DNA of 64,000 nucleotides from the NCBI GenBank assembly GCA_028345575.1, contig JAOMDR010000001.1, positions 1 to 64,000 on the forward strand, read 5' to 3'. The DNA comes from Candidatus Nitrosopelagicus sp. Lineage in GTDB: Archaea > Thermoproteota > Nitrososphaeria > Nitrososphaerales > Nitrosopumilaceae. The translations under genes and the position numbers were made by a program. The notes under the pieces are model-generated. The model saw only the letters and a list, made by a program, of their open reading frames with translations. It did no database searches and was not told the origin of the DNA. Each line of letters starts with the position of its first letter. Positions within the stretch are counted from its first letter, which is position 1. Positions 4,307 through 36,151 of this stretch are shown piece by piece.

Positions 4307-4686
4307 TTAAAAATATTTTCAGATTTTGTATCAACCGTAATTTTATTACCATCTTGTATAGAATCAAATTCTTCATTGGATACTACAATCATTGGAATAT
4401 TTGCAAGTGCACAACCTGATGCAACAGTTAGATCTGCTTTTGTACATATCATTGCAACAGGTGCAGAATTATTAGATTTTAATGAATAAATTGTATATGC
4501 ACCAACACTACTTCCAATACCATGTGGAAATACTAGTATAGTATCTTTGATTGATTTTTCAAAAATATCATATTTTTCATCACGAATTGTACCTGTTTTT
4601 TTATCAACAGCACCAAGAAAATTAATTGGACTAGTAGTTTTTAGAACTGTTCCCTGTGCCGTTCCTTGAACAATTATTTTACTCAT
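4303..4686 (-). CDS. Phosphomevalonate dehydratase small subunit (aconitase X swivel)
   Basis: Small, swivelling-domain subunit (DUF126) of the aconitase X family. In archaea this enzyme dehydrates 5-phosphomevalonate to trans-anhydromevalonate phosphate in the modified mevalonate pathway leading to isoprenoid lipids. The 127-residue protein contains GTVLKTTSPINFLGAVDKKTGTI near the N-terminus, then VFPHGIGSSVGAYTIYSL and a conserved late segment IPMIVVSNEEFDSI. Its ATG overlaps the stop of the large-subunit gene by 4 bases, implying translational coupling. Assignment to phosphomevalonate rather than another hydroxyacid rests on the archaeal context. Confidence 0.87.
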   Translation of the reverse strand: MSKIIVQGTAQGTVLKTTSPINFLGAVDKKTGTIRDEKYDIFEKSIKDTILVFPHGIGSSVGAYTIYSLKSNNSAPVAMICTKADLTVASGCALANIPMIVVSNEEFDSIQDGNKITVDTKSENIFN

Positions 4687-5846
4687 TTTGTTTCATCCTC
4701 AATAATTTTTGCAAGTGGTTTTAGGTTTACGTCTACACCTGTAGAATTTTTCAAATAGTACGCACCTTTTATGGAATTAGTAGTAATTGCATCAGTTTCA
4801 TTAGTATCAATCAATGGTGTAAGACATGTACAACAATCAGATAAAATTTCTCCTCCTGCTCTTTCAATTTCATTGATGTAATCAAGAGCACGTGCTTGTT
4901 CTTGTATAGCTCTTGAACAAAATATCATGCAACGCTTTTCAAATGATTTTCCTTTTAGCATTTTTGATAAGTCAGATATTTCTTCTAATCCTAATTGAGG
5001 ACTTCCAAGAGTGATAATATCGCCTTTTTCTGCAGTGTTTAATTCATCAAAGACTTCATTCATCTCTTCTTTTCCAAAATCAACTTTCTCAGATGTTGTA
5101 TCTTCAGTATCAACAAATTGGAATTTAGCGCATGTACCTGAAGTGCCCATTCCTCCACACAAGGCTTTACAGCTACGTCGGTTTGGTTGTGAGACTCCTG
5201 ATATGTTAACAGATGTATCACCAACTTTTCCTGCAAAAAACCCAAGCATTCCAAAATCTAGTTCACTTGGATTATCCATTTTCATTCGTATCGTCATTGG
5301 AGTTGAAATGTTATCTTTTCGTAAATCAGAATATGGAGATTTTCCAGTTATTGCGCTTGCTAATGCACTAAATGCACTTTCTTTGTTTGTTTTTAGACCA
5401 CCAAGTGAGTTTGCAAAGATTGCAGCATTACTTTCAGCAAATGAAACTTGAGTGTTTTTTTCTGGTAAATCAAAAATATCATATGGCGTGCATGAAAATG
5501 TTGGTTCAACTCCCATCCTAATGTAAGAATCACGAATACTTGCTTGTTTTTTGATAAATTCATCATCAATGTGATTAAATTCAGAGATGCGATCAAAATC
5601 AATTCCCATTGGATTAACAGTTGCTTTAACCTTAACACGAGCATCTTTACTTAATTCTCGAAGAAACTGTTCGCCAGCATCACCAATTGTATTATAATTA
5701 ACACCTGAAAGATGTGCCCATGTTATAGGAATGAGTTTTTCTGCATTGGTTGCCTCACCTGTAGCAACTAGAATTCGGTATGCAGTTTGTAATGTATCAC
5801 CATGTTCACCATTTAATGCAGCTTTTTCTTCAGAAGTTAACTCCAT
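4683..5846 (-). CDS. Phosphomevalonate dehydratase large subunit (aconitase X catalytic)
   Basis: Catalytic subunit (DUF521) carrying the iron-sulfur centre. From MELTSEEKAALNGEHG it is 387 residues. Cysteine-bearing motifs likely to hold the cluster are CKALCGGMGTSGTCAKF in the middle and CCTCLTPL near the C-terminus; ITWAHLSGVNYNTIGD and the CTPYDI segment are also family-like. The frame stays open to 5924, but that would overlap the divergent endonuclease III gene, and the downstream ATG at 5846 starts the conserved sequence. Paired with the small subunit through a 4-base overlap. GGGP synthase at 42.9 kb uses the isoprenoids made downstream. Confidence 0.88.
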   Translation of the reverse strand: MELTSEEKAALNGEHGDTLQTAYRILVATGEATNAEKLIPITWAHLSGVNYNTIGDAGEQFLRELSKDARVKVKATVNPMGIDFDRISEFNHIDDEFIKKQASIRDSYIRMGVEPTFSCTPYDIFDLPEKNTQVSFAESNAAIFANSLGGLKTNKESAFSALASAITGKSPYSDLRKDNISTPMTIRMKMDNPSELDFGMLGFFAGKVGDTSVNISGVSQPNRRSCKALCGGMGTSGTCAKFQFVDTEDTTSEKVDFGKEEMNEVFDELNTAEKGDIITLGSPQLGLEEISDLSKMLKGKSFEKRCMIFCSRAIQEQARALDYINEIERAGGEILSDCCTCLTPLIDTNETDAITTNSIKGAYYLKNSTGVDVNLKPLAKIIEDETK

Positions 5847-5897: not shown

Positions 5898-6551
5898 ATG
5901 AAAAAAATTCTTAATGGAATGCACAAAACAATGAATTCAGTAAAAACTCCAAGAATTACTGCATTAAGAGATCTACATGATGCCGAAGACCATGGGCCAT
6001 TTAGTATTTTGATTGGAACAATCTTATCTGCAAGAACAAAAGATGAATCAACTACAAGAATTGTCAAAGATTTATTCAAAGTATACAAAAATGCACGACA
6101 ATTATCAAAAGCTAAATTAAAAGATGTAGAGAAAATTATTAAATCAATAGGGTTCTATCATGTAAAAGCAGAACGTATTATCGAGGTTGCAAAAATTATT
6201 GATTCAAAGTATAAAGGAAAAGTCCCTGATGATTTAGAAAAACTAGTTGAATTACCAGGAGTTGGAAGAAAAACCGCAAATTGTGTACTAGTTTATGCAT
6301 ATGAAATTCCTGCAATCCCAGTAGACATTCATGTTCATAGAATTTCAAATAGAATTGGACTAGTCAAAACAAAAACACCTGAAGAAACAGAGTTTGCGTT
6401 AATGAAAAAAGTCCCAAAAAAATATTGGCTTGATGTGAATGATACATTTGTAATGTATGGTCAAAATATTTGCAAACCAATTTCACCAATGTGTGAAGTT
6501 TGTAAAATAAGAAATGGGTGTGAATATTATAAAACTAATTCCGCTTCTTAG
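5898..6551 (+). CDS. nth: Endonuclease III (DNA glycosylase/AP lyase)
   Basis: Base-excision repair enzyme removing oxidised pyrimidines and cleaving the abasic site. The 217-residue protein has the helix-hairpin-helix ELPGVGRKTANCVL with catalytic Lys125, the catalytic Asp143 in VDIHVHRI, and a complete 4Fe-4S loop with Cys192, Cys199, Cys202 and Cys208 (spacing 6-2-5). ATGs at residues 8 and 12 are alternative starts. The 3' end overlaps the convergent secreted-protein gene by 17 bases. Confidence 0.94.
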   Translation: MKKILNGMHKTMNSVKTPRITALRDLHDAEDHGPFSILIGTILSARTKDESTTRIVKDLFKVYKNARQLSKAKLKDVEKIIKSIGFYHVKAERIIEVAKIIDSKYKGKVPDDLEKLVELPGVGRKTANCVLVYAYEIPAIPVDIHVHRISNRIGLVKTKTPEETEFALMKKVPKKYWLDVNDTFVMYGQNICKPISPMCEVCKIRNGCEYYKTNSAS

Positions 6552-32654: not shown

Positions 32655-33194
32655 ATGAGAGTTTTTGTAGCAGTTGAAATTTCTAATGACGAAATTTTGA
32701 AGAATATTCAAACATTTGAAAAAAATATTCAGATTGATGCAAAACCTACAAAAATTGATCAGATTCATTTTACTTTAAAATTTTTAGGAGAAATTGATGA
32801 AAGTAAATGTGAACAAGTAAAAGATATTGTTAAGAAAATATCATTTTCTTCTTTTGATTTATCGTTGAAAGGTGTAGGCGGATTTCCAAATTTAAAAAAT
32901 CCACGAGTAATCTGGATTGGAATCGATGAAAATGGTGCAGAGAAATTAACCGCTATAGCAAATGAAATAGGAATAAAATTAACATCGTTGGGTTTTGAAA
33001 ATGATAAAAAATTCAAACCTCACTTGACAATTTTTAGGGTAAAAAATAAAATTAACGACATTTCAGTCATGATGAAAGATTATCAGACTATTGATTTTGG
33101 TACACAAACTGTATCAAAAATCAAAGTAAAAAGAAGTGTTTTAAGTCCAAAGGGGTCAGAATATTCAGATTTACTGGAGGTTAATGCAAAATGA
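32655..33194 (+). CDS. thpR: RNA 2',3'-cyclic phosphodiesterase (ThpR/LigT family)
   Basis: A 179-residue 2H phosphoesterase. The two catalytic HxTx motifs are IHFTLKFLGE (about residue 37) and PHLTIFRV (about 122). Family enzymes open 2',3'-cyclic phosphates on RNA and join some tRNA halves. The gene overlaps cca by 4 bases, which fits a role in tRNA end repair. Divergent from the UPF0200 gene across a 64-base promoter gap. Confidence 0.9.
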   Translation: MRVFVAVEISNDEILKNIQTFEKNIQIDAKPTKIDQIHFTLKFLGEIDESKCEQVKDIVKKISFSSFDLSLKGVGGFPNLKNPRVIWIGIDENGAEKLTAIANEIGIKLTSLGFENDKKFKPHLTIFRVKNKINDISVMMKDYQTIDFGTQTVSKIKVKRSVLSPKGSEYSDLLEVNAK

Positions 33195-34531
33195 AAAGCG
33201 ATATCATAAAAAAATCAAAACAAATAGCAATTCCAAACAACATACTAAGAAAAAAAGTGGATAAAATTGCAAATCAGGTCTTTAGTCTAGTAAATAAAGA
33301 AACTGAGAAACAAAAAGCGGTCGTGTCAGTACATTTTGGAGGTTCATATGCAAAAGAAACGTGGACTCCAGAAAAAATTGATATTGATATTTTTGTAAAA
33401 TTTAAAAAAACAACAACTGAAAAAAATTTTGAAACGATTGGTAAAAAAATTGGATTTGATTCACTAAAAAAATTCAAGCCATATGTAAGATATTCAGAAC
33501 ATCCATTTGTTGAAGCAGACATTGATGGAGTAGGAGTTAATGTTGTACCGTGTTATGACATTAAAAAAGGAGAATGGAAAAGTGCAGCTGATAGATCAAC
33601 ATTTCATACAGAGTTTATGAGCGAAAAACTAACGGGTTCAATGAAAGATGACATTAGAGTTTTAAAATGTTTTTTAAAAATTAATAGAATGTATGGAGCA
33701 GAGATTGCAAAGCAGGGATTCAGTGGTTATGTTTGTGAAGTTTTAGTTTACTATCTTGGTAGCTTTGAAAATGTCTTAAAGAAAATTGCAAAATTGCAAA
33801 ATAATGAAATGATTGGAGAATCTCCAAGAAAATTTGAATCTTCAATAGTAATAATTGATCCAATAGACAGGAATAGAAATCTTGGAGCTGCAATATCAAT
33901 TCAAAATGTTACAAATTTCATTTTAATTGCTAGAAATTTCTTAAAGAAGAATTCAATTTCATACTTTAAAGAAAAATCAAAAATTAAGATTCCTACTGAA
34001 ATTGTAAAAAATTTACTAATTGTGAATTTTACATACAAAAAAAGGAGCGATGACATTGTTTATGGGCAAATTAAGCGTGCATCTAGCTCAATTGAATCCC
34101 AAATGATCAATGAGGGATTTAATGTTCTTAGAAATGATGCTATAGCATATGATGAAACCAAAGCTAGTTTGTTGTTCTTACTAGAATCACTAACCATATC
34201 AAAAAATGAAATAAGAACAGGGCCGGATGTGTTTTCTGGTGAGTTTGCAACTAAATTTATCAATATTAATTCCAAAAAATCAAAATTAATGTGGACAGAT
34301 AAGGAAGGAAAATTACAATCATTACAAACTCGAAGATATGAAAATGCCAAAACATACCTTAATGATTTAATTAAAAATCATATTGGACAATCAGGAATTC
34401 CAAAGGGATTAAGAAATGATTTCAAAAAGGGATTTAAGATAACAAGTGGAAAAGACAAACAAAGCAAATCTGTTAAAAAGAGCATTTCAAAACTGATAAC
34501 TACTGATGACACAGCATTTTCAACCAATTAG
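33191..34531 (+). CDS. cca: CCA-adding tRNA nucleotidyltransferase, archaeal class I
   Basis: Adds or repairs the 3' CCA of tRNA. The nucleotidyltransferase signature GGSYAKETWTPEKIDIDIFVKF (family GSxAKxTWxxxxxDID) lies around residues 48-68, with EADIDGVGVNVVPCYD supplying the third aspartate. MKDDIRVLKCFLKINRMYGAE and QGFSGYVCEVLVYYLGSF belong to the central domain. The 446-residue length is typical. It overlaps thpR by 4 bases and the fusion gene downstream by 26 bases. Confidence 0.93.
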   Translation: MKSDIIKKSKQIAIPNNILRKKVDKIANQVFSLVNKETEKQKAVVSVHFGGSYAKETWTPEKIDIDIFVKFKKTTTEKNFETIGKKIGFDSLKKFKPYVRYSEHPFVEADIDGVGVNVVPCYDIKKGEWKSAADRSTFHTEFMSEKLTGSMKDDIRVLKCFLKINRMYGAEIAKQGFSGYVCEVLVYYLGSFENVLKKIAKLQNNEMIGESPRKFESSIVIIDPIDRNRNLGAAISIQNVTNFILIARNFLKKNSISYFKEKSKIKIPTEIVKNLLIVNFTYKKRSDDIVYGQIKRASSSIESQMINEGFNVLRNDAIAYDETKASLLFLLESLTISKNEIRTGPDVFSGEFATKFININSKKSKLMWTDKEGKLQSLQTRRYENAKTYLNDLIKNHIGQSGIPKGLRNDFKKGFKITSGKDKQSKSVKKSISKLITTDDTAFSTN

Positions 34532-35873
34532 CGTTTTCAATAAAGAACCTTACAAAAAAATTCTAGCATTTCCAGAGGGAAAACAAACAGAGATTAAAAA
34601 ACGACTAACAGAATTAAAAAAATTAGGAATTTCTCATGTTTCATTCACCGGACCATTACAAATTGAAAAGTGTCAGATTCTTGGAAAGGGGTATGTGGGA
34701 ATGGTTGTTCTTGCAAAAAAAGATAAGAATGTCGTAGCGTTAAAAATTCGAAGAATTGATTCTCCAAGGAAAAATATGGCAAATGAAGCCAAATTACTTA
34801 AAATTGCAAATAAAATTGATGTAGGTCCAAAGTTTATCAAAAATTCAAAAAATTTTTTGATAATGGAGTACATTGAAGGTGAGAAAATTATTGATTGGGC
34901 AAAAAAGCCTGAAACAAAATCAGAAGAAATTCGTTTAGTATTGAATAATGTTTTGAGAGAATGTTATCTTTTAGATAATATAGGATTAGATCATGGAGAA
35001 CTAAGTACAATAGACAAACATGTAATTGTTGGAAAAAATAAAAATACAATTATTGATTTTGAGAGTTCAAGTACTAATAGAAAACCATCCAATGTAACAG
35101 GTGCAACGCAAGCAATTTTTATTGGAACAGGATTGGCAAAAATTATTCAAAAAAAAATAAATTTACTAACAAAATTAAAGATAATTAATCTAACTAGAGA
35201 ATACAAAAAAAATCCAACAGCAAAAAACTTTGAAAATATTACTATTGGATTAAAATTACAAACCGCAGGTAAATATGAAAAAGAGGTTTCATCTTTGTAT
35301 TTAGATAAAAAACTTGAACCATTGATAAGAAAAATTGGTCCATGTACAATGAGAATTACAAAAAACTCGTACCAAACACTTGTGGAGGCAATAATCTATC
35401 AACAATTATCAGAAGCATCTGCCACAGCAATTACAAAGAGATTTCTAAAACTTTACAAAAAATTTCCGACTCCAGAACAGGTTATGAATACAAATGATAA
35501 AAAATTAAAAGATACAGGAATTTCAGGCACAAAAATCAATTACATTAAAGGATTATCAAAACAGATTATTCAAAAAGAAATTGATTTTAGAAAAATTTCG
35601 AAATTAAAAGATGAACAAGTAATTGAAGAGTTAACAAAAATCAAAGGAATTGGAAATTGGACGGCACAAATCTATCTAATGTTCTGTTTACAAAGAAAAG
35701 ATGTTTTTCCAGTAGGAGATTTAGGAATACAAAAAGGAATTAGAGACTTGTTTTCATTAAAAGAACTGCCTAATCCAAAAATTATGGAAAAATTTTCTGC
35801 TAGATGGAAACCAAATCGCAGTATTGCGTGTTGGTATATTTGGAAAAGTCAGAGAATAAATTCTATAGGCTAA
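34506..35873 (+). CDS. Protein kinase-like domain fused to AlkA-type DNA glycosylase
   Basis: One open frame of 455 residues with two unrelated halves. Residues about 50-215 resemble the archaeal COG2112 predicted Ser/Thr kinases: GKGYVGMVVLAKK, LKIRRID (Lys), FLIMEYIEGEKI, LDHGELSTIDKHVIV and TIIDFESSS (Asp-Phe-Glu in place of DFG). Residues about 255-450 are a HhH-GPD 3-methyladenine glycosylase: VEAIIYQQLSEASA, the hairpin IKGIGNWTAQIYLMF and the catalytic Asp in VGDLGIQKG. It starts inside cca (26-base overlap), so it is expressed with tRNA processing genes. Confidence 0.82.
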   Translation: MTQHFQPISVFNKEPYKKILAFPEGKQTEIKKRLTELKKLGISHVSFTGPLQIEKCQILGKGYVGMVVLAKKDKNVVALKIRRIDSPRKNMANEAKLLKIANKIDVGPKFIKNSKNFLIMEYIEGEKIIDWAKKPETKSEEIRLVLNNVLRECYLLDNIGLDHGELSTIDKHVIVGKNKNTIIDFESSSTNRKPSNVTGATQAIFIGTGLAKIIQKKINLLTKLKIINLTREYKKNPTAKNFENITIGLKLQTAGKYEKEVSSLYLDKKLEPLIRKIGPCTMRITKNSYQTLVEAIIYQQLSEASATAITKRFLKLYKKFPTPEQVMNTNDKKLKDTGISGTKINYIKGLSKQIIQKEIDFRKISKLKDEQVIEELTKIKGIGNWTAQIYLMFCLQRKDVFPVGDLGIQKGIRDLFSLKELPNPKIMEKFSARWKPNRSIACWYIWKSQRINSIG

Positions 35874-35938
35874 AAATCAGTAGAGATTTGACCTTTCATG
35901 CATGAAATAATTAAATCGTGGTGAGACAAAATGAGTGT

Positions 35939-36151
35939 ATGGGTACATGTTCTATCTGTAAGAAAATTTGTGCAACAGATAGTGATCATCTACACTGTGT
36001 AGAAAAAAGACGAATTGAATTAGAAAATTTACAAGTAAAAGATAGTATAACTGAAAAATTGGATTTAGGAAAAGATACTAACAATATGGGTAAGGAAATC
36101 AAAGCGCTCTTAGGACATATGAATAGAGAAAAAGATACTAAATCTGAATAA
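35939..36151 (+). CDS. Small Cys/His zinc-finger-like protein
   Basis: A 70-residue protein. MGTCSICKKICATDSDHLHC provides CxxC and a later His/Cys set that could bind zinc; the rest is a charged helix. The frame extends upstream to GTG at 35918, giving seven more residues; the ATG at 35939 begins just before the motif and suits the TATA-like AATTAAAT near 35907. It is convergent with the SDR gene, with no gap. No family recognised. Confidence 0.6.
   Translation: MGTCSICKKICATDSDHLHCVEKRRIELENLQVKDSITEKLDLGKDTNNMGKEIKALLGHMNREKDTKSE

Follow-up and report, generated by a model that had tools for sequence, protein, structure and literature searches.

An ArkI-type tRNA kinase joined in one reading frame to a Mag1/AlkA2-type DNA glycosylase in Candidatus Nitrosopelagicus

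When a kinase and a DNA repair glycosylase are encoded by one gene, does the kinase serve the repair enzyme, or have two enzymes with separate jobs been joined? This question is raised by positions 34506-35873 on the forward strand of the window (the whole stretch of 64,000 nucleotides of Candidatus Nitrosopelagicus sp. analysed here), where one open frame of 455 codons encodes a protein of 455 aa. The initial annotation had described it as a single frame joining a COG2112-like kinase to an HhH-GPD glycosylase, beginning inside the CCA transferase gene. Both points were confirmed: the frame opens within the 3' end of cca, with an overlap of 26 nt, and domain searches gave profile matches for both halves, kinase-like in the N-terminal one and PF00730 in the C-terminal one. 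The features of the locus are collected in Table 1.

Table 1. Coordinates of the fusion domains and of the genes preceding them in the window
Feature	Position	Strand	Remarks
thpR/LigT-type 2H phosphoesterase (RNA 2',3'-cyclic phosphodiesterase family)	32655..33194	+	Overlaps cca start; cluster repeated in relatives
cca, archaeal CCA tRNA nucleotidyltransferase	33191..34531	+	Shares its last 26 nt with the fusion gene; TIGR03671 E=7e-103
ArkI (tRNA U47 2'-kinase) domain, residues 1-245	34506..35240	+	TkArkI 7vnx match, Foldseek, PMC9095486
Short linker, about residues 246-257	35241..35276	+	Contains the low-confidence hinge 251-253 and no conserved start codon
Mag1/AlkA2-type HhH-GPD DNA glycosylase domain, residues 258-455	35277..35870	+	HhH GIGNWTA 381-387, catalytic D405

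Between the fusion and an SDR gene there is also a 77-aa Cys-containing ORF (CSICKK...HLHCVEKRR; 35918-36151, forward strand), which is conserved in the related genomes G409 and G419. It had no match in the Pfam scan and is possibly a zinc-binding protein.

The fusion is carried by 15 Nitrosopelagicus genomes, among them one of 1.2 Mb in a single contig; in 14 of the 15 it is full length, each time with exactly 455 codons and no stop. A frameshift or an assembly artefact is ruled out by these 15 genomes, single-contig assembly included. The objection foreseen with the initial annotation, that homologues might consistently be two genes with a frameshift at this point, fails: two genes do occur elsewhere in the family, but within Nitrosopelagicus the fusion is fixed across a clade. 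Median dN/dS among the fused copies is 0.12 in the kinase half and 0.09 in the glycosylase half, so both halves are maintained. The ArkI-glycosylase ORF is real and both of its domains are complete; as a single frame found in several independent genomes, with both halves under purifying selection, it represents a stable architecture.

In the AlphaFold2 model of the fusion the mean pLDDT is 89.6, the sole internal low-confidence stretch is at residues 251-253 and the pTM is 0.64; two alignments fed to the structure prediction misplaced some rows of unfused glycosylases, and the model is still confident per domain. From the high pLDDT, the hinge and the pTM we take it that each domain is well formed in the model, which leaves their mutual arrangement undefined and shows no defined domain-domain interface. 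A hinge in the linker would also suit a continuous frame that yields two proteins by internal initiation or cleavage, with no functional fusion, and near-cognate start codons are found around residues 249-274 in single genomes. This we consider unlikely, since no start codon at residues 205-281 is conserved among the 14 genomes with the full fusion, and at the first invariant ATG (M282), which is already within the glycosylase fold, initiation would drop the first two helices of that fold.

Concerning the N-terminal half, residues ~55-245 are kinase-like in Pfam (RIO1, E=3e-6; Pkinase, E=3e-5 with the N-terminal half alone), the Pkinase score of 24.0 bits being below the curated cut-off of 31.7. 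It does not look like a canonical Ser/Thr protein kinase either, having HGE and DFE in place of HRD and DFG. Among all solved structures the closest to residues 57-235 is TkArkI (7vnx; phmmer E=7e-19), while the next solved kinase reaches only E=2e-7; also when the model was searched with Foldseek, the kinase ranked first was TkArkI (E=2e-9, TM 0.74 by target length), above the RIO kinases. Protein kinase and RIO/Bud32 identities were both rejected as weaker than ArkI in sequence and fold, canonical protein kinases and Bud32/RIO being much weaker matches among solved structures. ArkI adds a phosphate to the 2'-OH of U47 in tRNA of archaea, giving 2'-phosphouridine-47 (Up47); its gene was tracked down as the COG2112 member STK_09530 (PMC9095486). 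Judged by sequence and modelled fold, both nearer to TkArkI than to other kinases, the N-terminal half is by family an ArkI (COG2112) RNA kinase and not a protein kinase, and the label "protein-kinase-like" first given to it has to be revised.

The residues of the domain agree with this assignment. The HGE and IIDFE motifs pointed out in the initial annotation are present (H163/E165 and D184), as is the catalytic Asp of the glycosylase (D405), and the alignment revealed no loss of kinase catalytic residues. Of 14 TkArkI residues tested by mutation, 11 recur unchanged in the fusion protein, all of them residues whose mutation lowers activity: K61, G62, K80, E94, H163, K171, D184, N196, T198, Y233 and K234. 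The first seven are the P-loop K and G, the VAIK-type Lys, a Glu, the H and K of the catalytic loop and the metal Asp; corresponding to K32, G33, K51, E65, H130, K137 and D149 of TkArkI, they are kept in all fused copies covering each site; N196 and T198 correspond to N160 and T162, T198 being S in 2 of 15 fused copies. The C-terminal RNA-binding motif YKR is found as Y233 K234 K235. The three positions that differ are Q132 (E165 here), R95 (M120) and R202 (K235). Since the E165 and M120 states were seen in all 68 aligned proteins, those of Nitrososphaeraceae included, they belong to the lineage and do not indicate decay.

With the kinase identified by family as a tRNA kinase, no support was left for the proposal that it regulates the glycosylase or senses damage. 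A kinase that phosphorylates the glycosylase or responds to DNA lesions would be in keeping with the kinase fold and the shared polypeptide; however, the domain belongs to an RNA-kinase family and retains the tRNA-binding YK(R/K) motif at 233-235, it persists in relatives unfused and without the glycosylase, and ArkI lacks subdomain VIII, the peptide-recognition part of protein kinases (PMC9095486). We regard this reading as very unlikely.

Substrates for an ArkI exist, because U47 is present in 17 of the 20 five-base V-loop tRNAs that could be parsed in the sister genome assembled as a single contig. It is also known that Up47 is formed in E. coli expressing the ArkI of Nitrososphaera viennensis, a mesophilic ammonia-oxidising archaeon, and the KptA/Tpt1 family has been described as eraser of this mark (PMC9095486). 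ArkI is almost universal among Nitrosopumilaceae, and no KptA/Tpt1 (PF01885) was detected in 121 genomes of this family (G000 and 120 others), with E. coli and Methanosarcina controls positive. Up47, if made, may therefore be irreversible in Nitrosopumilaceae or be removed by another eraser.

The C-terminal half is equally recognizable. Residues 293-435 match HhH-GPD (PF00730, E=1e-19) with 71.1 bits against a cut-off of 26.2, and among solved structures residues 257-452 match Mag2, Mag1, Bacillus 2h56 and Deinococcus AlkA2 at E=1e-33 to 3e-23 (S. pombe Mag2 1e-33, Bacillus 2h56 3e-33, Mag1 1e-31). Foldseek of the model retrieved Mag2/Mag1 for this half, and Bacillus 2h56 and DrAlkA2 are supported in both sequence and fold. 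The HhH motif GIGNWTA is at 381-387, a QQLS motif is present and D405 lies in VGDLGIQKG; D405 and the W and T of the HhH are invariant in 14 of 14 full fusions. The domain is thus an HhH-GPD protein of AlkA/Mag1 type, and it is the only Mag1/AlkA2-type one found in the window genome, which encodes two other HhH-GPD proteins, one at 6012-6419 with a stronger PF00730 match and one of 282 aa on another contig.

Beside the HhH Trp, at positions 384, 388, 389 and 390, which are otherwise constant among unfused glycosylase genes, the fused copies carry the fixed changes R384N, E388Q, M389I and F390Y. This cluster (N384, Q388, I389, Y390; window positions 35655-35681, residues 384-392) differs from Mag1 and DrAlkA2 too. 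The changes could mean altered DNA contacts; the lineage also has a long stem (0.75-0.8 changes per site), and they are inseparable from it.

To place the fusion among its relatives, we considered its distribution. The fusion query matched 368 of 398 genomes of the phylum, usually as the kinase alone in a gene of ~250 codons, and among these 398 genomes Candidatus Nitrosopelagicus alone gave matches over the full length in an uninterrupted frame; the surveyed genomes are partly incomplete, and beyond the phylum the survey consisted of a close-relative scan. Within the genus (31 genomes), 14 have the full 455-codon frame and one has a fusion truncated at the 5' end, three encode a kinase 76-79% identical and no glycosylase, and seven deeper-branching ones have a stand-alone kinase 51-55% identical; the remaining genomes, mostly incomplete, gave no clear match.

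Among the other Nitrosopumilaceae that match the glycosylase strongly, its gene directly follows arkI in at least 10 of the matches listed, is located ~1.4 kb downstream in at least nine and is on another contig in at least one. Where the two genes are separate and adjacent, in other Nitrosopumilaceae and one member of Nitrososphaeraceae, they are often less than 30 bp apart. In one Nitrosopumilaceae clade a 452-aa gene separates them (L091 4609-5967 and L092 5161-6519, the two read of the nine with the ~1.4-kb spacing); the one scanned (L091, genome G029) is a cation-efflux transporter. The order thpR-cca-arkI-glycosylase is also found in L087, from another family of the order that we take to be Nitrososphaeraceae; group names other than the genus are inferred in this survey. 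The glycosylase gene is absent beside arkI, or from the genome, in many ArkI-bearing relatives. As a separate observation, arkI is split in L099 (genome G287, 4353-5131) into pieces of 85 and 162 codons next to an intact glycosylase gene, which suggests a frameshift or a sequencing error.

The coupling with cca stressed in the initial annotation stands as far as the overlap goes; it is ordinary operon structure across ammonia-oxidising archaea. That arkI is coupled with cca follows from the work of ArkI on tRNA and is already published: arkI shares an operon with the tRNA nucleotidyltransferase gene (STK_09530/STK_09520; PMC9095486).

The kinase tree groups the 15 fused copies and the kinase-only genes of G406, G409 and G419 in one clade (100/100), with these three genes nested inside the fused copies on a 96/96 branch. 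No remnant of the glycosylase was seen after arkI in G409 and G419. The simplest history is a single fusion, after which the glycosylase half was lost once, and repeated independent fusion was rejected on the same grounds. As these three genomes lost the glycosylase and kept the kinase, the kinase does not need the glycosylase, even after the fusion. In the glycosylase tree all fused copies fall on one branch, whose stem is placed with Nitrososphaeraceae genes on long branches; we do not take this placement as a sign of transfer.

All this is probably best accounted for by a fusion of two operon neighbours whose ancestral functions both persist, with no obligatory coupling. In the ancestor of Candidatus Nitrosopelagicus, adjacent and co-transcribed arkI and glycosylase genes, in this order, would have lost the intervening stop in a single event. 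The ArkI domain would transfer phosphate from ATP to the 2'-OH of U47 in tRNAs whose variable loop has five bases, and the Mag1/AlkA2-type domain would excise alkylated purines from DNA. Joined by a short flexible linker, the halves would not need to pass substrate or signal to each other, and each most likely keeps its old job. The analysis shows the families, the residues, the gene order, the single fusion, purifying selection and the later glycosylase loss in one sub-lineage; the two activities and the absence of functional coupling we infer. A functional tie may exist, since arkI and the glycosylase gene stay linked across the order. However, tight coupling is disfavoured by the glycosylase loss in the fused clade, the cation-efflux gene between the two genes elsewhere and the pTM of 0.64, and the evidence favours a simple operon fusion.

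A tie centred on tRNA deserves consideration, in which the glycosylase domain has turned towards tRNA, excising or inspecting alkylated bases, while ArkI marks or stabilises the same tRNA. The neighbours thpR, cca and arkI are all tRNA-related, the arkI-glycosylase linkage is old and kept across an order, and the hairpin changes are fixed in the fused clade; yet every landmark residue of a DNA glycosylase is retained, and the glycosylase is missing in many ArkI-bearing relatives and was lost once within the fused clade. To our knowledge, no HhH-GPD glycosylase acts on RNA. We find this reading quite improbable. Very improbable, in our opinion, is a bifunctional caretaker whose tRNA 2'-kinase and HhH-GPD glycosylase work on the same RNA and were favoured as one unit by selection in streamlined marine archaea, be it by excising alkylated bases from tRNA or, with the same low probability, by steering damaged tRNA.

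A tRNA kinase linked with an HhH-GPD glycosylase was not found in the literature searched, and a review of the additional domains carried by DNA glycosylases names no kinase as fusion partner in the passages found (PMC9266487). The architecture thus appears to be unreported; the clustering of arkI with cca and both enzyme families are already known, and what is new is the domain architecture. The fusion of operon neighbours is best explained as a real, lineage-specific merger of two known enzymes, with no evidence of a new mechanism. The repair half has later disappeared from some relatives, so the merger is probably a peculiarity of one lineage rather than a kinase that senses damage. Replacing the story of a kinase regulating DNA repair by a tRNA-kinase account corrects the role of the kinase, and a mesophilic, streamlined ocean archaeon is seen to keep, in a new architecture, a tRNA U47 kinase known mainly from thermophiles. 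If the halves do cooperate, this would be the first link of tRNA phosphorylation with base excision.

Compared with known systems, the kinase half has the same domain, the same catalytic and tRNA-binding residues and the same cca-linked gene position as TkArkI (PDB 7VNX; COG2112 / AQ578 family). TkArkI and the other ArkI proteins examined are stand-alone (~220-260 aa), whereas the one in the window bears a C-terminal glycosylase, and HGQ of TkArkI is HGE here and in all ammonia-oxidising archaea examined. S. pombe Mag2 (4HSB/4B21) has the top score for the other half in sequence and fold and is its closest solved relative; its PDB titles call it a glycosylase "homolog". It has QKLS and PADDSTLKN where the fusion has QQLS and PVGDLGIQKG, the motifs of the fusion being nearer to those of bacterial AlkA2-type proteins. 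We know of no glycosylase activity of Mag2, a point that speaks against the preferred reading of an active glycosylase half, as do the fixed changes beside the HhH Trp. The Mag1/AlkA2-type enzymes (S. pombe Mag1 3S6I, Bacillus 2H56, D. radiodurans AlkA2 2YG8) share with the fusion the fold, the HhH GIGxWTA, QQLS (QQLH in S. pombe Mag1) and the catalytic Asp, while the attached kinase and the fixed changes R384N/E388Q/M389I/F390Y set the fusion apart.
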